Part shown: positions 5,380 through 27,194 of the stretch, piece by piece
How positions within the stretch are numbered: the first letter of the stretch is position 1
Layout: each line of letters begins with the position of its first letter
IMG/VR virus record: IMGVR_UViG_3300006484_000035
Location: 1-31,925 of that record
Origin: a virus
DNA length: 31,925 nucleotides
Strand: one strand, 5' to 3'
Position numbers and translations under genes: made by a program
Notes under the pieces: model-generated
Databases searched by the model: none
What the model was told of the DNA's origin: nothing
What the model saw: the letters and a program-made list of their open reading frames with translations, nothing else

Positions 5380-5382
5380 AAT

Positions 5383-7679: not shown

Positions 7680-8339
7680 ATGAAAAACGACTTACAAAAA
7701 TTTCTACGAAGTCAATCTATTTCAAGCACCTTTCAAGACAATTACTTTAAACACTTACAACGAAAAAATAGTACTCCTATGTTATTAGAGAGTAACGGTA
7801 TGTCAGTTGATGTTTTTTCAAAGTTACTGGATGATCGAATTATCTTTCTATCTACTGAAGTTGATGAATATGTCACGAACATAATCAAAGCACAACTTCT
7901 TTATCTAGAATCTGAAAGTGATGAAGACATATCAATCTATATTGATAGCCCAGGTGGTTCGGTTTATACTGGATTAGGCTTACTTGATGTAATGGACTTT
8001 GTTAAACCAGACATTGTTACAATCAATACGGGGCTCGCTGCATCGATGGCTGCCGTAATTCTATGTTCTGGTACAAAAGGTAAGAGAATGGCTCTTAAAA
8101 GAAGTAGAACGATGATACACCAACCATTATCCTATGCTGGATATCAACAAGCATCTGATTTAGAGATTGAAGTAAAAGAGATAAACTCTTTGAAAAAAGA
8201 ACTTTATGAAATAATTTCTGATAAATCTGGACAAGCTTTTGATAAAGTTGCTAAAGACGGTGATAGAGATTATTGGATGACCGCACCAGATGCAAAAAAG
8301 TATGGAATTATCGATGAGATAATATTAAAAAGAAAATAA
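7680..8339 (+). CDS. clpP: ClpP-like serine protease
   Basis: 219 residues, the length of a bacterial ClpP. Catalytic residues are visible: S122 in G-L-A-A-S-M-A-A-V, H147 in T-M-I-H-Q-P-L-S, and an Asp in K-D-G-D-R-D-Y-W-M (194-200). The strand D-D-R-I-I-F-L and the oxyanion G-G in I-D-S-P-G-G-S-V are also typical. The first 35 residues form an extra, basic N-terminal segment that could be a propeptide. Roles to weigh: a phage ClpP working with a host Clp ATPase, or the prohead maturation protease; T4 itself uses a different serine protease fold (gp21). No ATPase subunit lies nearby. A TTTTATAATAA element sits upstream (about 7647-7657). A gene of unknown function follows after 5 bases. Confidence 0.9.
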   Translation: MKNDLQKFLRSQSISSTFQDNYFKHLQRKNSTPMLLESNGMSVDVFSKLLDDRIIFLSTEVDEYVTNIIKAQLLYLESESDEDISIYIDSPGGSVYTGLGLLDVMDFVKPDIVTINTGLAASMAAVILCSGTKGKRMALKRSRTMIHQPLSYAGYQQASDLEIEVKEINSLKKELYEIISDKSGQAFDKVAKDGDRDYWMTAPDAKKYGIIDEIILKRK

Positions 8340-10378: not shown

Positions 10379-10395
10379 TTAAAAAACAGAAACAC

Positions 10396-11235
10396 ATGGA
10401 TCAAAGTCAAAAAGATAAAATATATGAACTTATCAACAAAAATAAATTTAGTATATTTAATAATAAGAAAAATAAAGAAGAAAGATTTTTATCCTTTTTT
10501 AAAGATAATAATATAATACTACCTATTGAAATTGATATTAATATTTATAATGTAATTTCCTATTTGAAAAATATTGACACTAAATGTAAAATAGATGAAT
10601 GTAATAATAATAGAATTTTTATAGGTATTAGGAATGATAATAGAACAGAATATGGATTTAAAAAATTTTGCACCAAGGAATGTGAATATAAAGGAATTTC
10701 ATTAAGACAAATTGGTAGTGGTAATACATGTCATAGGATGACTGAGGAGAGTTTTAAATCTATGTGTGAGAAAAATTCAATTATTATGAAAGAAAAAATT
10801 AAAAATGGAGAATTTACACCAAATATAACAAATAGTTGGAATTATGGTACATCATATCTTATAATTAATAGTAAAAAGATTAAATATAGATCTTCTTGGG
10901 AAGCATTCTTTCATTTATGTAATAATGAACTGGAATATGAAAAGTTGAGAATTGAATATAAATATAACAATGAATCACATAATTACATTGTTGATTTTAT
11001 TGATATAAAAAATAAAAAGTTATATGAAATAAAACCAATATCACAATTAGATAAACCAGTTGTTAAAATTAAAGAAGAATATTGTTTAAAATGGTGTGAA
11101 GAAAATGATTATGAGTTAGTATTTATAACGGAAGATTGGTATATTAAAAATTTAAACAAATTTAAAATACTTTTAGAAGATCAGCCTGATGGTATAAATA
11201 TTTATAAAAAATTAAAAAAATTTGATGAGAATTAA
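10396..11235 (+). CDS. Free-standing homing-endonuclease-like gene inside the split intein
   Basis: 279 residues in a different frame from the helicase halves. A zinc-ribbon-like unit has C64-x4-C69 and C92-x3-C96. A linker F-T-P-N-I-T-N-S-W-N-Y-G (140-151) leads to a nuclease core of PD-(D/E)XK or Vsr type: R165-S-S-W-E169, then H195-N-Y-I-V-D200-F, then Y-E211-I-K213-P. Known fractured genes with split inteins from marine metagenomes carry a Vsr-like homing endonuclease at the same place, so the role is most likely to cut intein-free helicase genes and spread the element. G+C is very low: 7 of 60 bases at 10441-10500, against 27 of 60 in the helicase at 9361-9420. The end overlaps the next start by 11 bases. 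Confidence 0.82.
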   Translation: MDQSQKDKIYELINKNKFSIFNNKKNKEERFLSFFKDNNIILPIEIDINIYNVISYLKNIDTKCKIDECNNNRIFIGIRNDNRTEYGFKKFCTKECEYKGISLRQIGSGNTCHRMTEESFKSMCEKNSIIMKEKIKNGEFTPNITNSWNYGTSYLIINSKKIKYRSSWEAFFHLCNNELEYEKLRIEYKYNNESHNYIVDFIDIKNKKLYEIKPISQLDKPVVKIKEEYCLKWCEENDYELVFITEDWYIKNLNKFKILLEDQPDGINIYKKLKKFDEN

Positions 11236-11329
11236 AAAAATTAAAAAAATAGAACATAATGATAATGTTTATAATTTAAGAATAGAAGACAATCATAATT
11301 ATTTTGTAGATGGATTATGTGTTAGTAAT
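11225..11329 (+). other. Split intein C-fragment (IntC, 35 aa coding)
   Basis: It starts with a basic MRIKKIKKIE stretch, as many natural IntC pieces do. Block F has His24. The C-terminal residue is Asn35, which cyclises; the residue before it is Ser, not the usual His, as also seen in the Npu DnaE split intein (A-S-N). With IntN it makes a 135-residue mini-intein without an internal endonuclease domain. Confidence 0.92.
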
Positions 11330-12145
11330 TGTCATCAAGCAAAAGCCAAGTCATACACTAATATACTTGAGTCAACATTCACTCATGCATATTCTAGATT
11401 TGGTGTCTCCGGAACCACACCAACAGATGAAACTTGTGAAATATTGACCATTCAATCTGTCTTAGGACCTAAAATAACAGAGGTTTCTGCTGATGAATTA
11501 AAGAAGAAGGGTATTATTACTCCAATGGAAATAAAGGCTGTTATAATGAATCATAATGACCTAGAGTTTCATGAAAGATTAAAACTGATAAGAAAAAGTG
11601 GTGATGGTAAGGCGGCATTTGATTTAGAGAAAGCTTATGCACATCAATCTGAAAAAAGATTAGTTTTTATTAGAAAGATTGTTGAAAAGTGTACTAATAA
11701 TACTTTATTATTATTTCATACAATTGATAATGGTCAAAGAATATTTCAGAAATTAAAAGATGAACTACCAGATAAAGAATTCTATTATATTGATGGTGAG
11801 ATAAGTGGTAAGAAAAGAGAAGAGATTAAAAAATTGATGGAGGTAACTTCTGATAAAGTTAAAGTACTTGTAGCTTCTTTTGGAACACTTTCTACCGGTG
11901 TGAGTATAAATGCTATTTTCAATGTTATATTTACTGACTCATTCAAATCAGAGCAGATTATTATTCAAAGTATTGGTCGTGGACTTCGTTTACATACTGA
12001 TAAAGATAAGGTAAACATTTTTGATTTAGTTGATATATTCAATCCAAATGATATGTCTAATATACTTTATAGACATTTTAAAGAAAGAGAGGGATTTTAT
12101 AATAAAAGAAAATACCCATACAAGATAATAAAAATCAATTTGTAA
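11225..12145 (+). CDS. uvsW: Split-intein IntC fused to UvsW-like helicase, C-terminal half
   Basis: 306 residues from the ATG at 11225 (a TTG at 11222 is in frame but less likely). Residues 1-35 are IntC: block F V-Y-N-L-R-I-E-D-N-H24-N-Y-F, block G G-L-C-V-S-N35. The next residue, Cys36, is the +1 nucleophile and is also the Cys of the helicase DECH box (C-H-Q-A-K-A-K-S-Y-T). The 271-residue C-extein has motif III S-G-T-T, and motif VI I-I-Q-S-I-G-R-G-L-R. Splicing of 266 + 271 residues gives a 537-residue helicase, close to T4 UvsW. No separate upstream element is seen; the start overlaps the endonuclease stop, so translation may be coupled. Confidence 0.93.
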   Translation: MRIKKIKKIEHNDNVYNLRIEDNHNYFVDGLCVSNCHQAKAKSYTNILESTFTHAYSRFGVSGTTPTDETCEILTIQSVLGPKITEVSADELKKKGIITPMEIKAVIMNHNDLEFHERLKLIRKSGDGKAAFDLEKAYAHQSEKRLVFIRKIVEKCTNNTLLLFHTIDNGQRIFQKLKDELPDKEFYYIDGEISGKKREEIKKLMEVTSDKVKVLVASFGTLSTGVSINAIFNVIFTDSFKSEQIIIQSIGRGLRLHTDKDKVNIFDLVDIFNPNDMSNILYRHFKEREGFYNKRKYPYKIIKINL

Positions 12146-12188: not shown

Positions 12189-15188
12189 ATGTCAAAAATA
12201 CAAATTTTCATTGATAATTTTGAGACAATCACTCTAACAGAACTTAACCTTCAAAATGAAAGAATAAGTAAATATAAAACTGCAAGAGCTTCTGCAATTG
12301 CAATAACTTATCCTAAAATCGCCTCTTGGCCTTTTAAGAAAAAATCTGATAACACCTATGGAACAGATCCAGATGTAAGAACCGTAGGTGATTTATTTAA
12401 GTATGTTTATCCTCTGGAAGAAGGAGGAAAACAAATCACACCTGAATATCCATATCTCGATTTTCTTGGAGACGTGTTAAACGAACTTAAAGACCCAGAT
12501 ACGGGTGCATTTCCATTATATGAAATTTTACGTAAAAATTATGGTGCTAAAAGGGCCGCAGATTTTACAAAAAATCTTAGAGCATTTGGTGCACAAAAGT
12601 GGTTTGACGCATTTATGTCATCGGCACTTGACTATTTAAAATCACAAAAAAGTTTAACCACTAATTATAAGAATTCCGATGAATTTGAGGATGATCTTTC
12701 TGATTTAAGAAAAAAGTTTAGAGATAGTTATGGTTATAACAGTATTGCAGATTTTTCTATAAATGATGTCTCTACACTTACAATCTTCTATGAAGCTTTT
12801 ATGGAAGCAGGTGATGACTATAAACTACCACCACCAGTATCGGCTACACAATCAGGAACTCAATCAGGAACTCAATCAGGAACTCAATCCGCGACACCTG
12901 TTGAGACACAATCTGCCACACAATCAGTTCTTGAGATAGGTGACTATAAAATCACCGTAAAAGATCCTAAAAGTGATAATGACCGAAAGATCGAAGGTTC
13001 AATTTCATTCACAACTTTAGGTCCACAAGTTAGTGCCAATTCTAGATTGATTGGCTTACCACATCCATTTACTAATCCAAAAACTGGTACAGTAGTAACA
13101 TCACAAGAAACTGCGGAAGCTAATGGAGAATTAAACTGGAAAACTAGAAATTTAAGTATATCATCTTATCCGGATACTTATGAAACAGTATTGGCAGACG
13201 AGGCAATAGTAAACCTACAAAGTATGATAGATTATTACTACGGAGTTGAAATAAAGTTACAATATACAAAAAATCCCGACGCTCCTACTCTTGTTTCTGC
13301 ATCTGCTTCCGGTACTCAATCTGCAACTCAATCTTCTGCACCTTTAACTGCAACTCAATCTGGTATGACTCAAAGTACTTTTGATGCAACTGGAATAAAG
13401 ATTAAACTACAAAAGAAAAGTGGTCCTGGTGAACTAATAGGTGAAGTAGAACAAACAGTTAAAGATGGTTTTGTGAATTTTGCAGGTATTCAATTCAATG
13501 CACCTGGAGATTACGTTATTTCAGTAATACCAGATTCAAATCTTATAGAACCTTCTGAAGCAATTATAAAGGTCTTACCAGAAGATGATGTTATTGCTCA
13601 AGATAAGTCAAGAGGTGGTGAACAAGAACCAAAAGATGTGCAAGGTACACGTCCAATAATCGCACAAATAGATAAACCCACGATTAAACTAAAACCTATT
13701 GAGTTTGAAGCATTACAGAATAATGGAGATAACGCAGAGGTTGCTGGTGCATTAGGATTTACTCCGTTCTTTTGGTATTCTGGTGTTCAAATAGATCAAC
13801 GATATATAAACTCACTGAATTTATATTATGATGGTCTTGTACCGATGGTATCTATTGTTTTTGAGGACTCGATGGGTGTTATGAAAAAAGATGGATTTCC
13901 ACTTGATGATAGTAAATTCGAAATATTTTTAAATTCAGGTTCAAAAAATCTAAAATCAATACACCTAAAGTTTAAACTAGTGAATTTCCAAGAAAATAAA
14001 AGTAAAACTTATACAATAGTAGGTACACTAGACCTTCAAGATTTTTATAAAATAAGATTTCAGAGTTATAAAGGAACTTCATTTGAAACATTGCAAAAAA
14101 TGTGTAAAGAGTTAGAAATAGGTTTTAATTCTAATATTACAAATACTTCTGATAGTATGACCTGGATAAATAATGGTAAATTATTTAGAACATTTATTAC
14201 TGATATTATTTCACACTCATATATTTCAGATAAAACATTTCTTATAGGTTATGTAGACTTTTATTACTGCTTCAATTATGTAGATATTGAAAAGGAATGG
14301 ATTAGAGATATATCTAAAGATGTTGGTATAAATTCAAGAGGTTTGAATCACTTAAATACAAAAGAAGAAAGTGAAAAGGTTGTACAATTACAATTAAGTA
14401 ATGATTTAAGTCAAAATAGTAGTTCATTTTTCTTTAATAAGTATAGAGTAAATAATAACTCAACACAAACTTCTCTGAATAATGGACACTTTACAGTATC
14501 AAATACTTATGATAGTATAAAAAAAGAATTTTTAGTATTTGATGTAGACTCACAGACATCAGATGGATCAAAAAGTATTATATTAAAAGGTCCACCTTCT
14601 GATGCACAAAAAGATAACTATCGTACAACATACTCCGGTAAAATGGATACGGAGAATGTACATAAACAATACTATTATTCAGAAACACAGAATAAAGTAA
14701 ATTTTGATAATATGGCTAGAATTTCTGTTGATTTAGAACTTCCTAACGCAAATTTCAATTTATATAAATTTATGAAGATACAGTTAAACTTTATAAATAC
14801 GAAAACTTCTGTTAATAATGATGAGATCTCACAAAAACGTTTAACAGGCGAATGGGTTATTATTGATATATCATATACTTGGACACAAGGCAATTTAACT
14901 CAAAAAGTTACCGCTGTTAGAAAAGAGCTTAGTAAAACAGATGATGAGTTGAAAAAAGATGCAAACTCTACACCTACAAATGCTGAAACAAATACACAGA
15001 ACAATGAAAATCCTGTAGTACCAGGTCAAACACAACCTATATTATCAACTGCAGTACCACCGAATAGTGTATATAAAGTTGGTCAAATATTCTTTGTTCA
15101 GAATAATTCTGGTAAAACGTTTAAATTGACAATTACTGAAGTTTCTACAAATGGTAAAGAAGTAAAAGCAACTATAAAAAATATTTAA
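12189..15188 (+). CDS. Baseplate hub-like structural protein with TQSG linker
   Basis: 999 residues. Residues 1-215 (MSKIQIFIDNFETIT ...) and about 245-365 (G-D-Y-K-I-T-V-K-D-P ... G-L-P-H-P-F-T-N-P-K-T-G) match the next protein and form a shared N-terminal module. Between them is a Thr-Gln-Ser-Gly repeat (12846-12890), with further TQS copies near 13309-13375. From about residue 525 the sequence (F-F-W-Y-S-G-V-Q-I-D; G-T-L-D-L-Q-D-F-Y; then M-A-R-I-S-V-D-L-E-L-P ... G-E-W-V-I-I-D-I-S-Y-T-W) has the feel of phage tail hub proteins of the gp27/gpD type; this is by pattern only. The last 60 residues are a separate small beta domain after a Pro/Asn/Thr linker. First gene of the plus-strand tail block; the next gene begins 6 bases on. 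Confidence 0.7.
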   Translation: MSKIQIFIDNFETITLTELNLQNERISKYKTARASAIAITYPKIASWPFKKKSDNTYGTDPDVRTVGDLFKYVYPLEEGGKQITPEYPYLDFLGDVLNELKDPDTGAFPLYEILRKNYGAKRAADFTKNLRAFGAQKWFDAFMSSALDYLKSQKSLTTNYKNSDEFEDDLSDLRKKFRDSYGYNSIADFSINDVSTLTIFYEAFMEAGDDYKLPPPVSATQSGTQSGTQSGTQSATPVETQSATQSVLEIGDYKITVKDPKSDNDRKIEGSISFTTLGPQVSANSRLIGLPHPFTNPKTGTVVTSQETAEANGELNWKTRNLSISSYPDTYETVLADEAIVNLQSMIDYYYGVEIKLQYTKNPDAPTLVSASASGTQSATQSSAPLTATQSGMTQSTFDATGIKIKLQKKSGPGELIGEVEQTVKDGFVNFAGIQFNAPGDYVISVIPDSNLIEPSEAIIKVLPEDDVIAQDKSRGGEQEPKDVQGTRPIIAQIDKPTIKLKPIEFEALQNNGDNAEVAGALGFTPFFWYSGVQIDQRYINSLNLYYDGLVPMVSIVFEDSMGVMKKDGFPLDDSKFEIFLNSGSKNLKSIHLKFKLVNFQENKSKTYTIVGTLDLQDFYKIRFQSYKGTSFETLQKMCKELEIGFNSNITNTSDSMTWINNGKLFRTFITDIISHSYISDKTFLIGYVDFYYCFNYVDIEKEWIRDISKDVGINSRGLNHLNTKEESEKVVQLQLSNDLSQNSSSFFFNKYRVNNNSTQTSLNNGHFTVSNTYDSIKKEFLVFDVDSQTSDGSKSIILKGPPSDAQKDNYRTTYSGKMDTENVHKQYYYSETQNKVNFDNMARISVDLELPNANFNLYKFMKIQLNFINTKTSVNNDEISQKRLTGEWVIIDISYTWTQGNLTQKVTAVRKELSKTDDELKKDANSTPTNAETNTQNNENPVVPGQTQPILSTAVPPNSVYKVGQIFFVQNNSGKTFKLTITEVSTNGKEVKATIKNI
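12846..12890 (+). repeat. 12-base tandem repeat coding Thr-Gln-Ser-Gly
   Basis: Three units of GGAACTCAATCA/C after a partial unit ACACAATCA, in frame, encoding TQSG repeats in the linker of the hub-like protein. Confidence 0.9.
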
Positions 15189-15194
15189 TGAATA

Positions 15195-17870
15195 ATGTCA
15201 AAGATACAAGAGCTTATTGATGCGTGGAATACCGCAGTAGATGTAGAGATAGCGGCTGCACAAAGTGAGGTAGATGCTTATTTAGCAGCTAGACAAACTG
15301 CCATAGCACTTACGGATCCTTTTATATTGAAAATGCCTACACTAGAGGTTTTTAATATTGACCCTGAAGGAGTAACAACACCTGGATTTGATGTAACAAC
15401 GATTGGTCAATTGTTTGAATGGTCTTTCCCGGCAGAAGGTATGAAAGCTTATGATAAATATGGTAATTTTAGATCAAAACCTGATGTTGTAGAAGACTAT
15501 GTCGATAAAAAATATGCCAAAGATTCGGGTGAGTCAACTAATCCAATAACCCCAACTACTTTATACATCCAAGGATATACTTTTGCAACTATGTCATACT
15601 TAGCTAAACAATATGAGACTGGTCTTAGAACACACCAGGATTTATACAATATATTAAAAGTTAAAGATTCTGGCTTTGTCAAATTGGCAGCAGAAAAAAA
15701 ACTAAAAAACTTAGGAGGTAAAGCTTGGTTCGACTCTTGGATGCATTCTTTATATAGAGTTATATATAATACAAAAATATCTGTATCAACTTTAAAATAT
15801 AAAGACTACTCTGATATTTTTATGAGAATTGAAGATGAGTTAGACGAGAACTACTTAAAAGGTTTTTACAGTTCGGGTACTCGTTTTCCTCTAGGTATTG
15901 GTGAACAATCTAAATATTTTCAAGCCGTTTTAGAAGCAGGTGATAATTTCTTTACATCTCAAACTTCTGGAACACAATCTGGAACACAATCTGGAACACA
16001 ATCTGGAACACAATCTGGTGTAAACACTGATTATACACTGAGTGTAATAAATCCATTAAGTGATATAGAAAAGAAAATTTTGGGTAAAATAACTTTTATC
16101 GAAGCGGGTAAGTATATAATTCCTAATAGTACATTAAATGGATTACCAAATCCTTGGACAAATCCAAAAACTAAAGTAGTAGTACCGAATAATACTGGAA
16201 TTATTAAATTTAGTGGAGGTAAAAGTACTTCATCTAAAAACAGCCTTGCAACTGATGCAATTCTTGAGTTACAAAACATAATTGATGGTACTTATGGTTT
16301 AACAATTTATCTTAAATATACAGAACCAGATGGACCTCCAGTAGTACCACCCAGTGATTCGTCAACGGGACCTTCTGCAAGTGCAATAACTGGTGCGTCA
16401 GAAAGTTCTGTACCTGGTCCAACTTCGAGTACAGTAGGGACACAAGAATTTACTTTTAATGTAGAACAATTAGATATATTTTCAAATGCAGACTTTGGAA
16501 ACTTATTTATTATTGGTCAAGAAGATGAGACTTTATTATATGATGACGGAACAGATATTGATGATGAGTATAAAGAGTCTGCGTTTGAAGGTGATCCAGA
16601 GGCATCTGTATCAGAAGAACAAGAATATACCGACCCAGTTACAGGCGAAGTTTCAGAGGAAATTAGACAAGAAACTGAAAAACAGTCAGAGACAATAAAT
16701 AGTGCTCCTTATGTACCAGGTAAATATACTTTAGATATGATACCTGGTACTTTTTATGGTAATAATAAAATGGCTATTACTTGTTGTCAGATAGATGGAA
16801 AACCAGTTAGTGTTAAAATAGCTGATGCAGTATTAGATCTTAAAGCTGCAGCCAAAAATGATGGTATTAAAGTAAATGTGAATTCTGGGTTTAGACCAGA
16901 TTATTATCCAAATGTGAGTACTAAATCAAAAGCAGGTGTGTCGGTAAGTGCACAATCTCAAGAGGAATTATATGCACAGAATTGTAAAGGTGGTAAGTGT
17001 AGTCCAGCAACTGCAAGACCAGGAAATTCTAAACATGGTTCTGGTATAGCGATTGACTTTAATACTGGATCTAGAGGTGGTAAAATTAAATCTCCGTTAG
17101 ATCCTAAACTATATAGTTGGATGGTTAAAAATAGTTTCAGATTTGGATTTGTTAGAACTGTTGCCTCAGAAGAGTGGCATTTTGAATACTGGGGAACATC
17201 AATAACAACAACACCTTATGCCAAATTACCTAAATCTAATACATTATTTTATACAGATTTAGGATTAAATAATCTAGTCGTTGGAAAAGCGTCAACACCA
17301 GACACCAAATCGACTCCAACAAATACAAATGGTTCCAAAGAAACGCCCACGACTAAGAAATTAGATACATTACCTTCAGCTATTAAAAAGGCAATTGCAC
17401 AACTAGAAAAGAAATATAATGTAAAAATTGACGATTCACATATTAATGCGGAACTAAGTCAAGAAGGAGGGTACTATGCTGATAATGGAGGAGAAAATGC
17501 TGAAGCAAGAAAGGCGATAGATAAATTAGTAGCTAAAATACATGAATTATTTCCAAAGACAAAGAAGGTTGGAGGGGTAATTTCAGCACATAGAACATAT
17601 GAGAAACAAGTAGATTTGTTTGGTAAAAAAATTGCGTCCGATGGTGGTGTTGCAAATCGACAAAAAATGAGTGCTATACCTGGATTTAGTCAACACCATA
17701 CTGGTAAAGCGTTTGATATTTTTAGTGTTGAAGGATCTTGGTGGGATAATAACCCTGATGTAAAAAAATGGGTTTATGATAATGCTGGGTCATATGGATT
17801 CAAAGGATCTTACTTTAAAAAGGGTCCTTTAAGAAGTATAGAACCATGGCATTTATATTATATAAAATAA
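15195..17870 (+). CDS. Baseplate-associated protein with two M15 peptidase domains
   Basis: 891 residues. Residues 1-255 and 278-375 are paralogous to the preceding protein (MSKIQELID ...; K-A-W-F-D; G-L-P-N-P-W-T-N-P-K-T), joined by a TQSG repeat at 259-275. After an acidic linker (about 440-500) come two peptidase domains of the M15/VanY D,D-peptidase type. First: S-G-F-R-P, S-K-H614-G-S-G-I-A-I-D621-F, E660-W-H662-F-E-Y. Second: S-A-H-R-T-Y, S-Q-H834-H-T-G-K-A-F-D841-I, E883-P-W-H886-L-Y-Y. Each has the full His-Asp-Glu-His set for zinc and catalysis. Probable role: cutting peptidoglycan cross-links as the tail penetrates. The paralogous module suggests docking at the same baseplate site type. 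Confidence 0.88.
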   Translation: MSKIQELIDAWNTAVDVEIAAAQSEVDAYLAARQTAIALTDPFILKMPTLEVFNIDPEGVTTPGFDVTTIGQLFEWSFPAEGMKAYDKYGNFRSKPDVVEDYVDKKYAKDSGESTNPITPTTLYIQGYTFATMSYLAKQYETGLRTHQDLYNILKVKDSGFVKLAAEKKLKNLGGKAWFDSWMHSLYRVIYNTKISVSTLKYKDYSDIFMRIEDELDENYLKGFYSSGTRFPLGIGEQSKYFQAVLEAGDNFFTSQTSGTQSGTQSGTQSGTQSGVNTDYTLSVINPLSDIEKKILGKITFIEAGKYIIPNSTLNGLPNPWTNPKTKVVVPNNTGIIKFSGGKSTSSKNSLATDAILELQNIIDGTYGLTIYLKYTEPDGPPVVPPSDSSTGPSASAITGASESSVPGPTSSTVGTQEFTFNVEQLDIFSNADFGNLFIIGQEDETLLYDDGTDIDDEYKESAFEGDPEASVSEEQEYTDPVTGEVSEEIRQETEKQSETINSAPYVPGKYTLDMIPGTFYGNNKMAITCCQIDGKPVSVKIADAVLDLKAAAKNDGIKVNVNSGFRPDYYPNVSTKSKAGVSVSAQSQEELYAQNCKGGKCSPATARPGNSKHGSGIAIDFNTGSRGGKIKSPLDPKLYSWMVKNSFRFGFVRTVASEEWHFEYWGTSITTTPYAKLPKSNTLFYTDLGLNNLVVGKASTPDTKSTPTNTNGSKETPTTKKLDTLPSAIKKAIAQLEKKYNVKIDDSHINAELSQEGGYYADNGGENAEARKAIDKLVAKIHELFPKTKKVGGVISAHRTYEKQVDLFGKKIASDGGVANRQKMSAIPGFSQHHTGKAFDIFSVEGSWWDNNPDVKKWVYDNAGSYGFKGSYFKKGPLRSIEPWHLYYIK
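15969..16016 (+). repeat. 12-base tandem repeat coding Gly-Thr-Gln-Ser
   Basis: Four perfect units of GGAACACAATCT. It codes the same TQSG peptide as the repeat at 12846 but with different codons (ACA and TCT instead of ACT and TCA). Confidence 0.92.
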
Positions 17871-18038: not shown

Positions 18039-20270
18039 ATGGATCTAAGTAAAATCTCTACTTCTTCTAATGCTGAATCAATTGTTGGTACTCCTCCTAA
18101 ATACTCGTATAAAGCAGGAACTTACACTATATTTAATAAAGAAACTGGACAAATTGAAACAATTGAACTTAATAAACTTAAAGGTGATTTAAGATCAAAC
18201 ATTGATAATATTATCAAAAATGGAACACCTTGGCCACAAGCAAGTATAGATAAGGGATTTTTATCACCACTTTTTATAAGTCCTAGTAAAGACTTTAGAT
18301 TCGGTAGTACACCAAAATCAACTGAACAATATGCGAGTGGTGATACTAATGTCACTAGTCCTGAAAGCAAATTAGAAGCAACTCCCGATACAGTAAATCA
18401 AATCAAAGTAGGTGAGTATGAGTATGTTGATTGGAGAGGCCAACTAATAAAATCAGGTGCAAATTCTACTATTTTAGATACCGATGAGAGGTTCAGTGAG
18501 AGTAAAAATCTGCCAAAAAATTCGAAAGATCTGAGTACATCTCCTTATAGTACACGTGATTTTTACTTACTATTCAATGATACAAGAACTGATTATTTTA
18601 AACATGGTTTGCAAATAATTGATAATTTAACTCCTATTGAAAATCCAGAAAATGGTAAATCAGAGTTACGTTTATCACAATTTCAACAAACACCTTTTGA
18701 GAATAATGATCCTGTAATGTTTGGATTTGAGATTATAATCGATGATATATCTTCTCCATTGTTAAATGGATCGGTGCTTGATTTTTTAAAGATTTATAGT
18801 GGAGTTGATGAGATAAGATCGAAAATTCCTGTTTATGAGGACTTCAAACAACAATTTGTAAAATTATTTAGAACTAGATCTACCGTAAATATTAATGATG
18901 AGCAAGTATCAATCAGTAAAACTAAACCTGGTTATGCAAATACTGATAGTGCTAAGAATCTTTTTAGAGGTGGAAAAACATCATATATGAGTTACTATCT
19001 TAAAAAAATTGGTGGACTAGCAAATCTAATAGAAGCAAATACTTCAGATAAGAAAAAATTTCTTGTTGATTATAGAACAGATCTTATTACACTTGATTTT
19101 ACAGAAGACGTTTCGCTAACGATGGGTACTTTAGCACATTTATATAAGTTATTATATTGGTCTAAACCAAATGGTAAAAGTATAGTTCCTGAAAATCTAC
19201 TAAGATTTAACTGTGATATTATAGTTTCTGAGTGTAGAAATTTTAATAGAGTTAGAAAAGGTATTGATAGCGGAGACTTAGAAGTTATCAAAGATAACCT
19301 ATCTAGATATGTTTACTCTTTAAAAGAATGCCAGTTCTTTTTTAATACAATGCCACACAATCCGGATATCGATATGTCTGCTATTGCAGTTTATGAAACT
19401 TATGGTATTCAGTTTGATTATAAATACTCTACAGTTAAGTTTGAAAGATTTATGCCATCTGCAAATTTTGGTAAATATATTGGATACGATAGTGGTGCTA
19501 TTTGGAAAATCGGTAACCCGGGTGCAAGAGTTGCAAGAGGTGGAACACAATCAACTACTAGTGATACTTCAATACCTAGATTCTTCACATCTGGTACTAA
19601 TACTAGTAATAATAATGGAGTTAAATCACCTGCAATATTAAATAGATTCGGAGTCAATTTACCGGAAAATCCTTTAGGATTTACGACTGATGAAAAAATA
19701 GATGATTTACAAGCTAAGGAATTAGAAGATAAGTTTGATTTAGATAAATTCAAAAGATATGCTAAAGATCAAACTGCAATCGGTGCAGATCTAAGTAAAT
19801 TAGTTAGTGAACAGAACAAGAAATTAGAGCTACTAAATAATCCGAAGACATTATTAAAAAATAGTGCAGAGTCTGTTATAAAAAACTTTACTGAGAAAAA
19901 TAAAACAATTGGAATACCAACATCTTTAAAAGATTTAACTGCCAAAAAGGCAGATACTAATATTGGTAACTTTATTGAAAGATTAAAAGATAAAACTATA
20001 AAAAGTGCCAAACAAGAATTGGCAACATTAGTAAATGGTAGAGTTAGTTTATTATCAAGAACGATAAATAAACTTTTAATAGACTTTGTTGGAAAAAAAG
20101 GAATTAGTCCACCACAAAATATCTATACAGGTCCACAAGATCCAATGGGTATTGCACTAACGAATACAACTGATAGATTTTTCTATGATATTAGAAATGA
20201 ATTGGCAGACTTTGCAGGTGGTGCAGTTAGTAACATATTAAATGGTGCTACTAACTTTATTAAAAAGTAA
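18039..20270 (+). CDS. Baseplate/tail-tube-like structural protein
   Basis: 743 residues, soluble. The middle (about 330-475) holds T-D-L-I-T-L-D-F-T-E-D-V, then L-L-R-F-N-C-D-I-I-V-S-E-C-R-N-F, then Y-V-Y-S-L-K-E-C-Q-F-F-F-N-T-M-P-H-N and F-D-Y-K-Y-S-T-V-K-F-E. This order of beta strands resembles T4-type tail-tube-fold proteins (tube and tube-initiator proteins of the baseplate), but I cannot assign a specific gp number. A G-G-T-Q-S-T stretch after it recalls the TQSG linkers upstream. The C-terminal 220 residues are charged and helical. Position between the hub-like/M15 genes and the gp5-like spike supports a baseplate role. Confidence 0.6.
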   Translation: MDLSKISTSSNAESIVGTPPKYSYKAGTYTIFNKETGQIETIELNKLKGDLRSNIDNIIKNGTPWPQASIDKGFLSPLFISPSKDFRFGSTPKSTEQYASGDTNVTSPESKLEATPDTVNQIKVGEYEYVDWRGQLIKSGANSTILDTDERFSESKNLPKNSKDLSTSPYSTRDFYLLFNDTRTDYFKHGLQIIDNLTPIENPENGKSELRLSQFQQTPFENNDPVMFGFEIIIDDISSPLLNGSVLDFLKIYSGVDEIRSKIPVYEDFKQQFVKLFRTRSTVNINDEQVSISKTKPGYANTDSAKNLFRGGKTSYMSYYLKKIGGLANLIEANTSDKKKFLVDYRTDLITLDFTEDVSLTMGTLAHLYKLLYWSKPNGKSIVPENLLRFNCDIIVSECRNFNRVRKGIDSGDLEVIKDNLSRYVYSLKECQFFFNTMPHNPDIDMSAIAVYETYGIQFDYKYSTVKFERFMPSANFGKYIGYDSGAIWKIGNPGARVARGGTQSTTSDTSIPRFFTSGTNTSNNNGVKSPAILNRFGVNLPENPLGFTTDEKIDDLQAKELEDKFDLDKFKRYAKDQTAIGADLSKLVSEQNKKLELLNNPKTLLKNSAESVIKNFTEKNKTIGIPTSLKDLTAKKADTNIGNFIERLKDKTIKSAKQELATLVNGRVSLLSRTINKLLIDFVGKKGISPPQNIYTGPQDPMGIALTNTTDRFFYDIRNELADFAGGAVSNILNGATNFIKK

Positions 20271-20300: not shown

Positions 20301-22523
20301 ATGGCAAAAGTAGATGGAAGTAGAACCTATATTGGTGTCGTTGAAGATAATAATGATCCATTAAAATTAGGTCGTGCTAGGATTAGAGTTTTAGATGTTT
20401 TTGACAATCTTAAAACTGAAGACATTCCTTTTGCCACGCCTTGGAAGGATATCAATGGTAATGAGTTTACTGCACCTGAAAAGGGTAAAGTTCTCTTAGT
20501 TGTATTTGATTCTGGAGATGAACATAAACCAGAGTTTATTTGTGCAGAACACTATAATATAAATTTAGAAAAAAAACTAAAATCATTATCTTCTGCTGAT
20601 TATCTTTCTATGAGTTCACTTTTATTTGATCATAAAACTCAAATATATGTAAATGACAAAGAAGGTTTAAAAATAGATCATAAATATAATAATATCAATA
20701 TTACAGAAAATACAATTGACCTTAACTTAAAGGACAATAATAGACACGTAAATATTGGAGATGCAACTGCTGGACAACAAGCAATTTTAGGAAATCACTG
20801 GTTGGATTGGTTTGATGAGTTTGTCGACAATTTAATGGGAAATAAAGGAGGCCCTTATTTAGGTAATTTAGGTGCTCCTGTTGTTACTAACCCTGCTATG
20901 ATACAAGTTTTAATGAAGTATAAACAATTAAGAGATCCTGTTTTCTTATCACATCACGTAAATATTGTAGATAATAATAAAGTCTCAACTGTTAAAAACA
21001 CTCCTAGAGAAGATACACCACAAATTGGTGATTCATGGGTTTCTACTAAGAAAGATAACGACGTAACCTCTAAAACTAATGAGAATTTTAAACCAGTAGA
21101 TGGTCCTAAACCAGAGTATAATGATAAACATGTGGAGCCATCAACTACTCCTACAACAGCAACAGGTACTCCTGTGGCTGCTACTGGTCAAGGTGCGAGT
21201 GCAAGTACTACAAACGGTGTTACTAATACAACAACACAAGGTGCTCCTGTGGCAAATGGTAGTGCTATAAATACTAATCCACCTGCAGAACCACTATCAT
21301 CAACAACATCTAATCCAAAGATAGACAAATTGATTAGTTTCTTAAAATCTAAAAAATATAGAACATATGACCAGATTGGAGTATTAAATATTGTTGCATT
21401 TCAGTCTGCTAAAAAAGATGACGGTAGTATTTCAAATAAATTTGATGATACATTAAATATTTTTTATAAAAATCAAAATGGTAATTGGGAGTTATTAGAA
21501 TATCAAATAACAACAATGCCTGGTTATTTTCCAAAAACTGAATTGTTACCTGAGGGAGTTGGTCTATTGGCATTAGGACAATATGCAGATTTATGTAGAT
21601 TAGATACTTATACATCTGATCCTACTACAACTCCAATTAAAACTGACAAGTGTTTGAAAATTGATGAAGCTACTATACACATAAATGATTCTACAAAAAT
21701 TTATAATTATAAATCAGAAAAAATAAATGTTAAGTCAATTGTTTTACTACATAAATCAAGTGATGTAGGATCTGCAGAAAGTGTATTTAATTATTCTGGT
21801 GGTGCCCAAGTATTTAAAACAGTATCACAATGGGATCAATTTACAACATTGTGTGAGAGTCAAGTTACCACAGCTAAAAAGGATACATTTACTTATACAT
21901 TCTGTAAACAAAGTGAGTTTGATACTTTTGTTCCTACTACAGTTGATGAACCAACAACTCCGAAAATTGTGGCTACAACTACTACAACTAATACAACGGG
22001 TGGTACAAATACTACACCAAGTACAAATAATACCACAGGTACAAATACTACACCAAGTACAAATAATACCACAGGTACAAATACTACACCAAGTACAAAT
22101 ACTACAACTGCACCGACAAAACCAGTTGTAACTAAACCAGTTATAACTGCGGAACAAAAGTCGTTTGATGATTATCAACGAATTGTTAAAACAATTGAAA
22201 ATATTTATAGACAAGGTGATCGTAACTTTACTGCAAATAATGATCCATTATTCAAAAGTTTTAAAGGATACGTTATTGATAATAAAACGGGTGCGGTTGA
22301 TAGAATATATGAGTTACTTGGATTAAAAACTATGAAGATTAAACAATTTTGGTATAATAAACTTTCAATAAGTGGTTTAACTACTGCACACCAAAAATTA
22401 TTTAAAAATCAGTTAATTGGACTTAGATCAGCAACTCTTGGAAACAATTCATTTAATTTTAACTTACCTACATTAAAAACAGGAGAAGGTTCAAAATATA
22501 TTTCTATAAATGGAGATTTTTAA
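20301..22523 (+). CDS. 5: Baseplate spike protein, T4 gp5-like, without lysozyme domain
   Basis: 740 residues. Residues 1-95 are the gp5-type N-terminal OB fold: Y-I-G-V-V-E-D-N-N-D-P-L-K-L-G-R-A-R-I-R-V, then P-F-A-T-P-W and a cradle ending I-C-A-E-H-Y. Next (about 113-180) comes I-Y-V-N-D-K-E-G-L-K-I-D ... H-V-N-I-G-D-A ... W-L-D-W-F-D-E-F, as in spike proteins of T4-like phages. T4 gp5 has a lysozyme domain after the OB fold; none is visible here, and a lysozyme is encoded instead at 22907-24463. The rest alternates low-complexity Thr/Asn/Pro linkers (about 275-335 and 555-610) with unrecognised domains. A 36-base tandem repeat encodes part of the second linker. Confidence 0.82.
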   Translation: MAKVDGSRTYIGVVEDNNDPLKLGRARIRVLDVFDNLKTEDIPFATPWKDINGNEFTAPEKGKVLLVVFDSGDEHKPEFICAEHYNINLEKKLKSLSSADYLSMSSLLFDHKTQIYVNDKEGLKIDHKYNNINITENTIDLNLKDNNRHVNIGDATAGQQAILGNHWLDWFDEFVDNLMGNKGGPYLGNLGAPVVTNPAMIQVLMKYKQLRDPVFLSHHVNIVDNNKVSTVKNTPREDTPQIGDSWVSTKKDNDVTSKTNENFKPVDGPKPEYNDKHVEPSTTPTTATGTPVAATGQGASASTTNGVTNTTTQGAPVANGSAINTNPPAEPLSSTTSNPKIDKLISFLKSKKYRTYDQIGVLNIVAFQSAKKDDGSISNKFDDTLNIFYKNQNGNWELLEYQITTMPGYFPKTELLPEGVGLLALGQYADLCRLDTYTSDPTTTPIKTDKCLKIDEATIHINDSTKIYNYKSEKINVKSIVLLHKSSDVGSAESVFNYSGGAQVFKTVSQWDQFTTLCESQVTTAKKDTFTYTFCKQSEFDTFVPTTVDEPTTPKIVATTTTTNTTGGTNTTPSTNNTTGTNTTPSTNNTTGTNTTPSTNTTTAPTKPVVTKPVITAEQKSFDDYQRIVKTIENIYRQGDRNFTANNDPLFKSFKGYVIDNKTGAVDRIYELLGLKTMKIKQFWYNKLSISGLTTAHQKLFKNQLIGLRSATLGNNSFNFNLPTLKTGEGSKYISINGDF
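22002..22103 (+). repeat. 36-base tandem repeat coding a Gly-Thr-Asn-Thr-Thr-Pro linker
   Basis: Two identical units (22002-22037 and 22038-22073) and a third that diverges at its end. Each encodes G-T-N-T-T-P-S-T-N-N-T-T in the spike protein. Confidence 0.9.
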
Positions 22524-22906: not shown

Positions 22907-24463
22907 TTATGCCAAATATGCTACCGACTCATCTTTCCTTCTGGTCACCAAACCAGCCAATACTTTACCTTTAGATGTTTTTGGTCCACTATTAATTTGG
23001 ACAGAGGCATCTTGTTTTTTACCCTCATTTGTAAGAGCAACTGCTTTTAAGAAACTCGTATTACCAAATCCAGTATTGAATCCCATAGATAAAAGTGCAT
23101 CAAATTGACCTTGAGTAACTTTGACTTTAAGTTTTTTATTTAAGTCTTTGATTCTTGAGGCTAAATCTTTTAATAAAAGATTATCTATTTCAGAATCTGA
23201 CATTTTACCTGGTTTCAAATATTTAGAAAATATAGTTCTTTCATTTTTACTTATAAGGTGTCCAACTCCAATAGTTGGAAATCCTTTAAGAGAATCATAT
23301 GATTCTATACTTTTACCTGTACCATCATCATAAATTGTGGCTTTAGATCCCTCGTGTGTTTTTAACTTCTTCAATGCCGCGGCGCTGATTGTCATCTCAC
23401 CCTCTTTTGGTTTCGGGATTTCTAAAGGGCCACTCAAACTGTTTGTTTCAGTAACTTCAGCTGGTTTATCCGCTTCGGTTGGTACATAATCTATCCTAAT
23501 ACTTGTACTTAATTCTTCTGCTGCAAATTCATCTTGACCTGTAAATTCATCTTCGGTATATTCATCTATACCAGATGAATCATCAAAAATAAATTCATCT
23601 TCTTCAGTACTTGGATTTTCTAATAATCCTTTTTCTTTACCTTTACCAACATAAACTACAAATGATGTTATATCACTTTTAACCTTTACCACATCAGGTG
23701 GTAGAACTACCGTCATTTTTTCTTTAGGTGCTTCATTAGTGGCCACTTTTATGGTAGGTGGTACTTCTGGTTCAGGTGGTTTCAAAGGACTTTTATAAGG
23801 TATTATAGAACACTTTTCATTATCAGGTGAACAAAGTGCCAATTCATAGTTAGGAACTTTTCTTTTCCATGCAGCGATAATCTCTTGTATTATATAGATA
23901 TCTTCGAATAGACCACCATAAACTTGTGTTGGTACATCAAATGATTTATATTCGATTTCTTGACTTTTACCATATTGTAACACAGATGGTTCATCTATAC
24001 CAATAATATTAAAAACTGTCTTACTAATTGAAACATTTCCATTTATTTCTTTTCCAGAGTCATCACTATAAGTTAAACCACCTGCAGTAAAATTTCCTTC
24101 AGTCCAACTTATAAATATTTGTGCACCATTATTTAAGTAATAAGGATCTGAGCCATAGTACCTCCACTTGGGAGTTTTAATCTCCCAAGGATCTTGTATT
24201 ATATCATAGGTTTTTCCACCACCATCAATTTTAGAGTTCAGTGTTATAAAATCATCTATAAATTGATCATCGGTAAACTCTTTATAGATGTCTTTCTTTC
24301 TATATGTCGTTGCTATCCAAACTGGTCTATCATTGTTAAAACCAACAAGTATTCTCTCATCTGCACCAAATGTACGTTTTTCTTCATATATAGTTACCTT
24401 AATATCTAAATTACCTGAATTCAAATCTCTTCTTCTTACTCTTACTGATTTAATCTCTTTCAT
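22907..24463 (-). CDS. Tail-associated protein with C-terminal GH24 (T4-type) lysozyme
   Basis: 518 residues. The C-terminal 160 are a T4-lysozyme-like muramidase: K-T-H-E371-G with the catalytic Glu, Y-D-D-G-T-G (379-383), P-T397-I-G-V-G-H402, then Q-F-D-A-L-L-S-M-G-F-N-T-G and the final G-L-V-T-R-R-K-D-E. Residues 1-225 are a separate, probably structural domain, followed by Pro-rich (228-260) and acidic (285-318) linkers. With no signal peptide and a position in the baseplate block it is more likely a tail-borne lysozyme than a lysis endolysin. It starts 1 base after the upstream gene's end, and it has a rare clear Shine-Dalgarno (AGGAGG, 8 bases before ATG), although those bases also code the end of the upstream protein. 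Confidence 0.85.
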   Translation of the reverse strand: MKEIKSVRVRRRDLNSGNLDIKVTIYEEKRTFGADERILVGFNNDRPVWIATTYRKKDIYKEFTDDQFIDDFITLNSKIDGGGKTYDIIQDPWEIKTPKWRYYGSDPYYLNNGAQIFISWTEGNFTAGGLTYSDDSGKEINGNVSISKTVFNIIGIDEPSVLQYGKSQEIEYKSFDVPTQVYGGLFEDIYIIQEIIAAWKRKVPNYELALCSPDNEKCSIIPYKSPLKPPEPEVPPTIKVATNEAPKEKMTVVLPPDVVKVKSDITSFVVYVGKGKEKGLLENPSTEEDEFIFDDSSGIDEYTEDEFTGQDEFAAEELSTSIRIDYVPTEADKPAEVTETNSLSGPLEIPKPKEGEMTISAAALKKLKTHEGSKATIYDDGTGKSIESYDSLKGFPTIGVGHLISKNERTIFSKYLKPGKMSDSEIDNLLLKDLASRIKDLNKKLKVKVTQGQFDALLSMGFNTGFGNTSFLKAVALTNEGKKQDASVQINSGPKTSKGKVLAGLVTRRKDESVAYLA

Positions 24464-24464
24464 A

Positions 24465-24968
24465 TTATAATCCTCCTATTGAAAATCTACCATCTACTAT
24501 TCTAACAGGTTCTCTTGGGGTATCCAAAACAACTGGTGATAGTGAATAGTCATTCTCTATATAATTTTGTCTATTAGGATCAACTCTTGTAGTTTTATTA
24601 GGATTATTCTTGACTCCTAATTGTTTAATGACCTCATTATTTGTATCTTCTAAAACTTCTGAATATCTATAATTTTCAAATTGACCCATTGTTGGATATT
24701 TCAAAACCATTCCTTTTTTAATATTTAGTGGGTTATCTATATCATTTAATCTTAAAATAATGTCAATATTCTCTAATTCCTCATAGATTGAATTTGGTGT
24801 TATATTATACATATTTTGAAAAATTAAATCTATACGCATTTCATCTGAGTCAGTTACCGTATATTCTTGTGTAGAATCATCTCTGAAAACAATAGTTGGT
24901 TCAAAAAGATTATAAACATTATCAATAGTGCTAAATTTAACTGTTTTATATAAAGAAAATATATCCAT
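24465..24968 (-). CDS. Baseplate wedge-like protein, possibly gp53/LysM type
   Basis: 167 residues. The core (about 33-92) Y-T-V-T-D-S-D-E-M-R-I-D-L-I ... I-D-I-I-L-R-L-N-D-I-D-N-P-L-N-I-K-K-G-M-V-L-K-Y-P has the shape of a LysM-like fold as used in phage baseplate proteins, including T4 gp53; the assignment is by pattern and context. The C-terminal third is Asn/Asp/Pro-rich and extended. It lies in the middle of the minus-strand unit: 15 bases after the 736-residue gene and 1 base before the lysozyme gene. Confidence 0.62.
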   Translation of the reverse strand: MDIFSLYKTVKFSTIDNVYNLFEPTIVFRDDSTQEYTVTDSDEMRIDLIFQNMYNITPNSIYEELENIDIILRLNDIDNPLNIKKGMVLKYPTMGQFENYRYSEVLEDTNNEVIKQLGVKNNPNKTTRVDPNRQNYIENDYSLSPVVLDTPREPVRIVDGRFSIGGL

Positions 24969-24983: not shown

Positions 24984-27194
24984 TTAAAGTGTGAAACCAC
25001 TCCAATTTATGTTTTGTAATGTTGTTCCTATTGATGAATTTGCATCAGGTACTATCGTTTCACTATTAACTGATTCTTTTACTGTACCTGCAGCAGTTGC
25101 AGCATTTGTAGCCACATTAGCACCGGATGTTGCTACTGCATTTTGTGCTGTTGCAACTCCTGCTTGTGCCGTCGCTACAGCACCTTCAATTGCTCCATTA
25201 ATTACACCACTGGTCGCCGTACCTGCTGCAGTAGCTGCCTCATTAGCAGCAGCCGTTGCTTTGGCTGCTAGTGCTTCTGCTTGAGCTTGTCCACTGTTTA
25301 CTGCAGCAGTAACTCCATCTAAACCACTTTTTGCACTAGCCGCCGCGGCCGCTGCTCCTTCAGTCAAAGGACCAGCCACTGTACTAATATCGGTATTGAA
25401 ATTATTTGCAAATGTAGGAACAGGAGGTGGTAGTTGAGGACCAGCAGCAACTGTAGCTATTGTCGGTGTAACTTGAGCAGCAGTTGTAGGAACAGTTGCT
25501 CCGGCCACTCCTGCTACAGCACCAGTAGCTACAGCACCTGCAACTGCGGTTGTAGCTGCAGTAGTATTTGTAGGATTTGATGCTGATTCGGTTTTTGGAG
25601 TAACATAAATTTGATCTTGAAGTCTTTCTCCATGATTTAGATCATTTGTGTCCTTGACAATAGTGACAACTCTAATAGAACCTGAGTTAAACTTTGCTGC
25701 GATTTCTTGTAAACCCCACGGTCTTGCATTTTCTAATGTAAAGGTTGCTTTTATATTTGATGGTAAATCATTAAAAGCTAATGTAGCACCCAAATCTAAT
25801 GCAACATCTTGTGACATATACATATCACCTGAACAAAAAACAGGTCTTAGTGGATTACCAATAGTAATATGCCAAGGTGTAGAAGGAGCACCACTAAGTG
25901 ATCTTGCTATACCCTCAATTACAATTCTATACTTATTAAGTTGTCTTGATAAACCTTTAAGTAAATCATTTACAAGCGAGTCTGCCGTAACATCTTTTAG
26001 TTTATCCAATGCGTCTTTCTTCGCTTTTTCAGAAGCAGCATCTGCCTCTTCCTTAGTTTTTGATGGTGCGAGTGTTTCTTTAACACCTTCAATCATTTTT
26101 GTTATTTCTGTTTTTGCTGCTTCCAAACCTTCTTTAATAAATCCAACCATGTCCTCTACAATTTTCTCGGGATAATCCATCCATCTTTTTATAGTTTTTT
26201 CAAAAGAAGCTTTTAATCCATAATTATTACTTCTAGAAGTTGAAAATGTTAGTATTTTACCTAAAATATCCTGCCAAGCAATAGTCGGATCAATACCTGA
26301 TATAAATTTCTGTTCCCATTCACAAACCATTTGTATAGATACTGTGCAATTTAATCCTGTACCTGCAGTCTCACTCTTAACAGTTTGTCTTCTTTTCGCC
26401 ATCTTAATAAGATTAGGATTTCCAGCAGGTAAAGGAGTTTCTATATTATCATCAATAACACCCATCTTTTTTAACACAGTTCTTTGGATTGTTTCGGTAA
26501 AACCAGGTAAAGGTATTACTGCTGCTGCACCACCTAGTCTTTGACCTAGTGTTTTACCAAGAAAGTCTTCACCTAACGAGTCCAATACAGATTTAAAATC
26601 CGCTTCTGCATCTTCCCACTTTTCACCAAATGTGATTTTTAAGAAATCCTCTGTTTGTGGCTTCCAAGAAATCATAATAGCTAGTGGTTGTCCAGTTGCC
26701 AATCCTTTGAGAAAGATATTATCGGCATGAGGTGATCCAAATCTTCTTGCAATCATTAGTCTGTTATTAGGATAAACACCAACATCTTTAAGATAAGCAA
26801 AGTCGGAAGGTCTCAATTCGGCTTGAGTACCGGATAGTTGTTCAATAATATTTAATAAACTTGTGTCATATACAGTATTATTATGTAAGCTACTTCTTTT
26901 AATACCTTTATAAGGTCCAGACATATCCATACCACCACCATTTGTTGTTCCTAACTTACCAACATTACCATAAGGCGCAAGTGATGCTGAAGGAGAACCA
27001 CTAAATAAAGATCTAGTACCAACTGCACCAGAGAAGTTTCCGAATGCGGCATTCATTTGACCATTAGTAGCATTGTTATATGAGTTTACTGATATTTTTC
27101 TACTAGTACCACCATTAAATGTTGACATACCATCAGAAGTTGGTAAACTTCTAACACCGATAAGACCAAGTGGAGAACCGCCTAATATAGCCAT
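24984..27194 (-). CDS. Baseplate/tail-tube cap-like protein with Ala-rich C-terminus
   Basis: 736 residues. A Gly/Ser-rich start is followed by about 110-340 with V-G-V-Y-P-N-N-R-L-M-I-A-R-R-F, then a charged helical stretch (345-405). The segment P-W-H-I-T-I-G-N-P-L-R-P-V-F-C-S-G-D-M and F-N-D-L-P-S-N-I-K-A-T-F, A-R-P-W-G-L-Q-E-I (about 445-510) resembles tail-tube cap/initiator proteins of T4-like baseplates. The last 180 residues are an Ala/Thr/Gly-rich low-complexity tail (A-A-A-A-A-S-A-K; A-T-A-Q-A-G-V-A-T-A), partly helical. First gene of the minus-strand tail block, with the element TTTTTATATATAG 23 bases before its ATG. Confidence 0.65.
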   Translation of the reverse strand: MAILGGSPLGLIGVRSLPTSDGMSTFNGGTSRKISVNSYNNATNGQMNAAFGNFSGAVGTRSLFSGSPSASLAPYGNVGKLGTTNGGGMDMSGPYKGIKRSSLHNNTVYDTSLLNIIEQLSGTQAELRPSDFAYLKDVGVYPNNRLMIARRFGSPHADNIFLKGLATGQPLAIMISWKPQTEDFLKITFGEKWEDAEADFKSVLDSLGEDFLGKTLGQRLGGAAAVIPLPGFTETIQRTVLKKMGVIDDNIETPLPAGNPNLIKMAKRRQTVKSETAGTGLNCTVSIQMVCEWEQKFISGIDPTIAWQDILGKILTFSTSRSNNYGLKASFEKTIKRWMDYPEKIVEDMVGFIKEGLEAAKTEITKMIEGVKETLAPSKTKEEADAASEKAKKDALDKLKDVTADSLVNDLLKGLSRQLNKYRIVIEGIARSLSGAPSTPWHITIGNPLRPVFCSGDMYMSQDVALDLGATLAFNDLPSNIKATFTLENARPWGLQEIAAKFNSGSIRVVTIVKDTNDLNHGERLQDQIYVTPKTESASNPTNTTAATTAVAGAVATGAVAGVAGATVPTTAAQVTPTIATVAAGPQLPPPVPTFANNFNTDISTVAGPLTEGAAAAAASAKSGLDGVTAAVNSGQAQAEALAAKATAAANEAATAAGTATSGVINGAIEGAVATAQAGVATAQNAVATSGANVATNAATAAGTVKESVNSETIVPDANSSIGTTLQNINWSGFTL

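Follow-up and report, generated by a model that had tools for sequence, protein, structure and literature searches.

Putative peptidoglycan-cutting enzymes replaced at a conserved acidic joint on two unrelated carrier proteins in the tail hub gene cluster of a large tailed phage and its relatives

In the stretch of DNA analysed here (31,925 nucleotides, IMG/VR record IMGVR_UViG_3300006484_000035, hereafter the window), two unrelated proteins, B and L518, carry putative peptidoglycan-cutting enzymes next to a predicted gp27-type tail hub, and the comparison with relatives revealed that these enzymes are replaced at a conserved acidic joint and that the enzyme families are common to the two carriers. 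On balance, we lean towards a model in which protein A is the hub, B and L518 are enzyme carriers, the N-terminal module N1+TQSG+N2 faces the particle, and the enzymes are exchanged behind the acidic motif. The features concerned are the following.

12189..15188, +, protein A, 999 aa: N1, TQSG linker, N2, linker, Ig-like beta domain, gp27-type hub, small C-terminal beta domain (ORF, AlphaFold2 model)
12189..12842, +, N1 of A, residues 1-218, helical, homologous to N1 of B (AlphaFold2)
12849..12889, +, TQSG linker of A, 12-bp tandem array (TRF)
12942..13289, +, N2 of A, residues 252-367, predicted E-E-E-E-H-E (profile match, model)
13398..13586, +, beta domain of A, residues 404-466, modelled strands, putatively Ig-like
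13743..14933, +, predicted gp27-type tail hub of A, residues 519-915 (VIA-align, Foldseek)
15195..17870, +, protein B, 891 aa, enzyme carrier: N1, TQSG linker, N2, flexible stretch, acidic joint motif, two M15 peptidases (ORF, Pfam, model)
15195..15968, +, N1 of B, residues 1-258 (homology to A, model)
15966..16018, +, TQSG linker of B, 12-bp tandem array (TRF)
16029..16337, +, N2 of B, residues 279-381, E-E-E-E-H-E (profile match, model)
16563..16601, +, acidic joint motif of B, DEYKESAFEGDPE, residues 457-469; the enzyme is replaced here in relatives
16755..17264, +, first putative M15 peptidase of B, residues 521-690 (Pfam)
17385..17867, +, second putative M15/VanY peptidase of B, residues 731-891 (PF02557, best stretch 789-890)
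18039..20270, +, protein C, 743 aa, function unassigned, behind the hub in most relatives
20301..22523, +, protein D, 740 aa, gp5-type spike with OB domain (phrog_430 3e-14; PF04717 2e-4, slightly under its cut-off)
22907..24463, -, L518, second enzyme carrier: front, acidic joint, putative GH24 lysozyme (PF00959 1.7e-20)
22928..23314, -, putative GH24 lysozyme domain of L518, residues 384-512 (Pfam)
23528..23566, -, acidic joint motif of L518, DEYTEDEFTGQDE, residues 300-312
24465..24968, -, baseplate-wedge-like protein, weak match (phrog_15542 4e-5; phrog_7145, baseplate wedge, 0.0024)
24984..27194, -, P736, conserved cluster protein, near the hub in relatives

The genes for A and B are consecutive on the plus strand, with 6 nt between them, and their ORFs (12189-15188 and 15195-17870) coincide exactly with the positions at which a preliminary description of this DNA had placed a paralogous pair of baseplate proteins. 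The BLASTP similarity of the two proteins (E=7e-38, 32% identity) lies nearly all in the first ~400 residues, where the comparison of N1 scored 149 (shuffle maximum 63) and that of N2 179 (shuffle maximum 59); the C-terminal halves are unrelated (score 46, shuffle maximum 73; 300 shuffles in each case). The traits on which the pair had been recognised, that is, MSKIQ, WFD, GLPxP(F/W)TNPKT and the TQSG arrays, are all present in A and B, and the MSKIQ start and the WFD core of N1 are invariant in both. In the AlphaFold2 models the modules follow the same order in the two proteins: a helical N1 opening with a ~35-residue helix, the TQSG linker and a small alpha/beta N2 with the elements E-E-E-E-H-E, with pLDDT mostly 70-94 for N1 of A, 80-92 for N2 of B and middling (about 50-80) for N2 of A. 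Structure prediction, which had been suggested as a check of the pair, thus returned homologous N-terminal halves with the same predicted order of elements and not unrelated folds, the agreement being judged from that order together with the sequence homology.

Neither N1 nor N2 matched a Pfam or PHROG family in the scans, and a profile search of N1, N2 and the hub against PDB sequences gave nothing credible. When the 510-residue multi-domain model of the B module was used as query, the best fold matches were Foldseek E 0.37 (PDB) and 0.03 (BFVD) and VIA Z 6.1; we do not read this as a new fold. As N1 and N2 match no known fold clearly, there is no pointer from this side to a binding partner.

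The linkers are perfect 12-bp repeats, with 3.4 copies in A and 4.4 in B (TRF), and reading the codons confirmed that the same peptide is encoded differently in the two genes (ACT CAA TCA GGA in A, GGA ACA CAA TCT in B). In orthologues the array of A reads ACT CAA TCT GGT (L013) or ACA CAA TCA GGA (L014), that of B reads GGT ACA CAA TCT in L015, and copy numbers differ as well. Since both codons and copy numbers differ even between orthologues, the arrays appear to re-expand independently while the type of peptide is retained; independent expansion and a kept peptide (TQS(G/A)), at first offered as an either/or, apply together, with the arrays homogenised afresh. A 36-bp tandem repeat within the gene for D (22002-22106) encodes a T/N/S-rich linker resembling these arrays.

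The C-terminal half of A is, as judged from its single-chain model, a gp27-type hub (gp27/gpD fold). It matched T4 gp27 (1k28_D; VIA-align Z 21.8, rmsd 3.6, 321 aligned residues; Foldseek E 1.2e-10), the P1 baseplate chain 9vzk_1 (VIA-align Z 22.9), VgrG1 (Z 20) and the hubs of contractile injection systems (Foldseek E down to 3e-15), the VIA-align matches spanning 321-326 residues. The gene for the gp5-type OB spike, D, lies three genes downstream of A, and the Ig-like domain is retained ahead of the hub in many relatives. The different ends reported for the pair were confirmed, a gp27-type hub being predicted in A and two M15/VanY matches being found in B. Given that A would be the central hub, the pair would consist of one structural protein and one enzyme carrier, and not of two effectors on one adaptor; the idea of one attachment module carrying different effectors therefore survives for B, where enzymes differ behind a kept N1/N2, but not for A, which bears a hub and no effector.

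L013, L014, L015, L021, L022 and LR745206 share the order hub-B-C-D, with L518, the wedge-like protein and P736 encoded on the opposite strand. No lysozyme domain was detected in D by the Pfam scan. P736 matched no family and is probably a baseplate/tube initiator. We propose that A and B belong to the hub region at the centre of a contractile tail.

Although the pair itself stands, it is not the whole set, since a third linked protein, L518, and the acidic motif that it has in common with B had been overlooked. B can be described as a carrier of two putative M15 peptidases with intact active-site motifs: it matched the VanY/M15 profile (PF02557, 6.1e-35) in two stretches, the first copy matching also PF13539 (5.6e-5, slightly under its cut-off), and the translation of each copy contains intact zinc-site motifs of the H-x6-D and E-x-x-H type (SKHGSGIAIDF / EEWHFEY and QHHTGKAFDIF / EPWHLYY). 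The enzyme of L518 is a GH24 lysozyme as far as its profile match indicates (Phage_lysozyme PF00959, 74 bits, cut-off 22.3), and the front of this protein is unrelated to N1/N2.

The analysis of relatives revealed an extensive replacement of these enzymes. N1+N2 are found on both A and B in L013, L014, L015, L044 and L045, whose B proteins share 60-75% (N1) and 63-90% (N2) identity with that of the window, and in which the enzyme position of B is occupied by GH24 (L014), GH19 (L015) or a lysozyme-like domain without assignment (L013, L044, L045). In L037, N1 stands ahead of Amidase_2, and B proteins with N2 only carry GH19 (L021, L022, L043) or Amidase_6/CHAP (LR745206); overall, Pfam recognised M15, GH24, GH19 and Amidase_6/CHAP at the B position. 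In relatives, the same B module is thus found with other C-terminal enzymes (GH24, GH19 and others), in agreement with what the swap design first put forward predicts. The unassigned domain (~210 residues; L013:11501-12142, also L044 and L045) matched no Pfam or PHROG family, and its EGGY...GLD reads like a GH108-type lysozyme. The same holds for the L518 orthologues, which keep their own N-terminal ~320 residues while the enzyme changes: GH24 in the window, M15 in L014 and L024, CHAP/DUF1287 in L015, L045 and L028, Amidase_6 in L021 and L043, M15_4 in LR745206, L029 and L083, and GH19 in L023.

Clustering of the C-terminal tails placed five enzyme families on both carriers. The closest cross-carrier pairs are M15 (first M15 of the window's B and the L518-type protein of L014, 73% identity), GH24 (L518 of the window and the B position of L110, 67%), GH19 (B of L015/L043 and L of L023, 63%), Amidase_6 (B of LR745206 and L of L110, 60%) and CHAP/DUF1287 (L of L015 and the B position of L141, 53%); carriers were sorted by motif profile, the five pairs were checked by N-terminal domain or gene position, and L117 and L091, whose sorting is doubtful, were omitted. 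L091 encodes two L518-type carriers (3112-5472 and 9569-11686) with different C-termini. A rule of one glycan-cutter and one peptide-cutter per phage was considered and not adopted; it fits the majority of the classified pairs, LR745206 with its two peptide/amide cutters being an exception, and the trend is suggestive and not significant, the samples being small and related.

The exchange can be located by sliding identity. The B proteins of the window and of L014 are 95-100% identical at residues 414-453, dropping to 10% over 454-474 and staying at 10% beyond, and the comparison of the window's B with the L518-type protein of L014 climbs from 10-40% to 85-95% at residue 464 of B. The identity of L518 to its L014 orthologue drops past residue ~300, and the B proteins of L015 and L043 share ~40% in the carrier and ~90% in the GH19 enzyme. 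The sharpest change does not fall on the TQSG linker; it occurs at the acidic motif, also on the unrelated carrier L518.

This motif, E(Y/F)xExx(F/Y)xGx(E/D)E, lies immediately ahead of the enzyme in both carriers, in B ~80 residues past N2. In the 191.6 kb formed by the overlapping contig described below and the window, a relaxed pattern matched two of 222 ORFs, B and L518, against 0.12 expected, a figure that is somewhat optimistic since the pattern was picked after inspection of these two proteins. The joint profiles of B and L carriers match at E 1.4e-8 over 25 columns; homology of the whole carriers was rejected, as their profile match (E 1.6e-7) disappears once the motif is removed. All 24 aligned carriers have an E before Y and another at +2, and 23 of them have the E at +10; the Y, F and G positions served for the alignment and are not counted as conservation. 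In L117, a GH19 enzyme fused to the hub has the motif placed ahead of it.

According to the model towards which we lean, B and L518 would be two separate carriers holding peptidoglycan-cutting enzymes in the hub region, where these would stand in for the lysozyme that T4 builds into its spike, within gp5 (PMC3004832). N1+TQSG+N2 would be the structural, particle-facing end of B, attaching it to the baseplate, and the C-terminal enzyme its interchangeable working end, which might open the cell wall during tail penetration. Replacement of enzymes occurs both inside one carrier and across the two, right behind the motif kept by B and L518; the motif itself would most likely be a short peptide for docking or positioning, not one for cleavage. 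A location of B and L518 in the virion is suggested by the synteny and by direct fusions of the same enzyme families to the hub, which occur in L005, L029, L127, L130, L134 and MA9V-2. In L029 (9308-12541) the hub protein has an N-terminal GH19-like enzyme, and its C-terminal domain, without a Pfam match, reads like an SGNH hydrolase.

It is possible, although we give it less than an even chance, that the true dock is the acidic motif, bound on B and L518 by a conserved baseplate protein that would place the following enzyme, N1/N2 being accessory. Indeed, the motif is the sole thing common to B and L518, and nearly all B and L carriers keep it despite very different N-termini, including those fronted by SLT (L023, L029, L141). 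However, the motif of B is predicted to be disordered (pLDDT 30-50, that is, very low confidence), and the carriers still keep long, conserved N-terminal parts.

A more doubtful alternative concerns N1, which might be a host-facing domain under diversifying selection instead of an anchor, N1/N2 having been added to the hub and to the enzyme carrier to match different hosts. The notion of N1 as a conserved anchor did not hold, as N1 is the fastest-diverging part: N1 of A is 56-62% identical to that of near relatives with hubs at 90-96%. L013 and L014 share 92% in this domain, each has 60-62% to the window, and all three hubs are 94-96% identical; N2 of A has 50% (L013) and 86% (L014) identity to the window. 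Since the B-type N1 of L013 and L044 is 79% identical with hubs at 66%, N1 appears to move on its own. Against a host-facing N1 stand the invariance of the MSKIQ start and WFD core, the fact that relaxed constraint would likewise produce fast divergence, and the failure to find a binding fold.

Whatever faces the particle, the module is not required in general, since some relatives lack N1 and some A proteins lack N1/N2. The searches detected N1 in eight IMG/VR contigs only, and in none of the cellular genomes among 38 pattern matches; in four Mahaphage records searched, it was not convincing in any, and N2 was present in LR745206 only, on B. Moreover, in L022, L043 and LR745206 (L004), A lacks N1/N2 while B keeps N2, so that the module of B cannot need the copy of A for docking. 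N2 is also found at the C-terminus of hubs (L024, L125), and in two relatives the gene next after the spike gene encodes N2 fused to a peptidoglycan-binding OmpA domain (L026:19317-20915, L028:16885-18369); N2 may therefore serve more generally, as a spacer or for oligomerisation. As for its origin, N1 of A and B split once, B-type N1 forming one clade (support 100/100). We propose that the presence of N1+N2 ahead of A goes back to a single old event between A and B, a duplication or a transfer. A recent conversion between A and B was rejected on the basis of this clade and of the identity of A and B N2 (36-45%, be it within one genome or across the six in which both proteins have N1).

Turning back to the model with carrier-bound enzymes, the motif might be thought of as a site of proteolytic processing, where the enzyme would be released from its carrier, a reading that we hold to be unlikely. 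The motif does lie exactly at the junction of carrier and enzyme, in an acidic and predicted-disordered stretch, and the linker flanking the lysozyme domain of T4 gp5 is cleaved between Ser351 and Ala352 (PMC3004832); the absence of the motif from every other one of the 222 ORFs makes a general prohead protease an unlikely user, and the pattern has no recognisable scissile bond. It is very improbable that B and L518 act in late lysis, as endolysins, instead of in the tail, even though the enzyme domains of L518 and of several relatives' carriers match PHROG endolysins, as B starts 6 nt behind the hub gene in a place kept in relatives and the same families are fused to hubs.

If the favoured model is extended, we can tentatively speculate, with rather low confidence, that the ~12-residue acidic motif is a universal plug mounting any wall-cutting enzyme on either of two unrelated baseplate carriers, that the wall-cutting set is fitted to the host, and that N1 is an independently exchanged, host-matching head on the hub and on the enzyme carrier. 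A natural plug for at least five enzyme families on two tail-cluster proteins would explain changing tail enzymes in an unchanged particle. Were it a true plug, the motif would offer an easy handle for recognising virion wall enzymes in phages that lack annotation, and a natural template for the design of modular lysins; one could also test whether exchange occurs at a protein-level joint or anywhere in the gene.

Among the closest known systems is the gp27-gp5 cell-puncturing device of T4, with which the window shares a gp27-type hub near a gp5-type OB spike gene and, in the cluster, a putative GH24 lysozyme among other wall enzymes; unlike T4, the enzymes are on the separate carriers B and L518, no lysozyme being detected in D, and the hub protein is extended N-terminally by ~490 residues. 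The VgrG effector fusions of type VI secretion systems are also gp27/gp5-type hubs of the same fold with optional fused enzymes, whereas here the hub is that of a phage and the enzymes are mostly on separate linked proteins. Modular Tal proteins and virion-associated peptidoglycan hydrolases similarly join a structural part to a variable wall-degrading domain of several enzyme classes, but in the window's phage two unrelated carriers draw on one enzyme pool and one junction motif; such two-carrier swapping did not come up in a term search of a tail-lysin survey (PMC10194240). Tailspikes of Klebsiella and E. coli phages, according to two reports (PMC8262889, PMC10408124), combine a conserved attachment part with a horizontally exchanged C-terminal enzyme, as B does. 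Those are receptor-binding proteins, while the window's carriers are in a hub cluster and putatively cut peptidoglycan; moreover, exchange takes place across two carriers, and N1, the head module, is itself quick to vary. Swapped enzymes behind anchors are already known from tailspikes (PMC8262889) and tail lysins (PMC10194240); a limited literature search, which is weak evidence of novelty, found no description of an enzyme pool and a joint motif common to two carriers in one phage.

The window belongs to a large, tailed phage; the last part of IMG/VR contig IMGVR_UViG_3300027631_000002 is identical to the first 19,982 bases of the window. The host is probably a member of the Bacteroidota, whose phages are common and poorly understood; this is likely because Mahaphage members >634 kb are predicted to infect Bacteroidetes (PMC7162821). 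Mahaphages (LR745206, LR756501-504) have the same gene cluster, with hubs 31-59% identical, but differ in the sparse N1 and N2 described above. The cluster is also present in huge-phage records of 462-735 kb, and its hub is common to the window and to the Flavobacterium phage MaF61, the Tenacibaculum phage PTm1 and the Chryseobacterium phage MA9V-2.

Upstream of the hub, a fractured intein interrupts a UvsW-type helicase (9278-12145) at the DEAH motif: the front (9278-10378) ends with the intein N part (PF01079 4e-8) and the rear (11222-12145) starts with the C part (PF14890 2e-7). Between them is a gene for a free-standing VSR/TnsA-like endonuclease (10396-11235, phrog_15427 4e-31). The helicase is uninterrupted in L045 (7654-9267), and a like layout is annotated in PTm1 (L010:6215-9021), where an intein-containing split DNA polymerase precursor is followed by a VSR endonuclease. 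The window also contains a clear ClpP protease gene (7680-8339, PF00574 4e-66), which matches PHROG head maturation proteases too.
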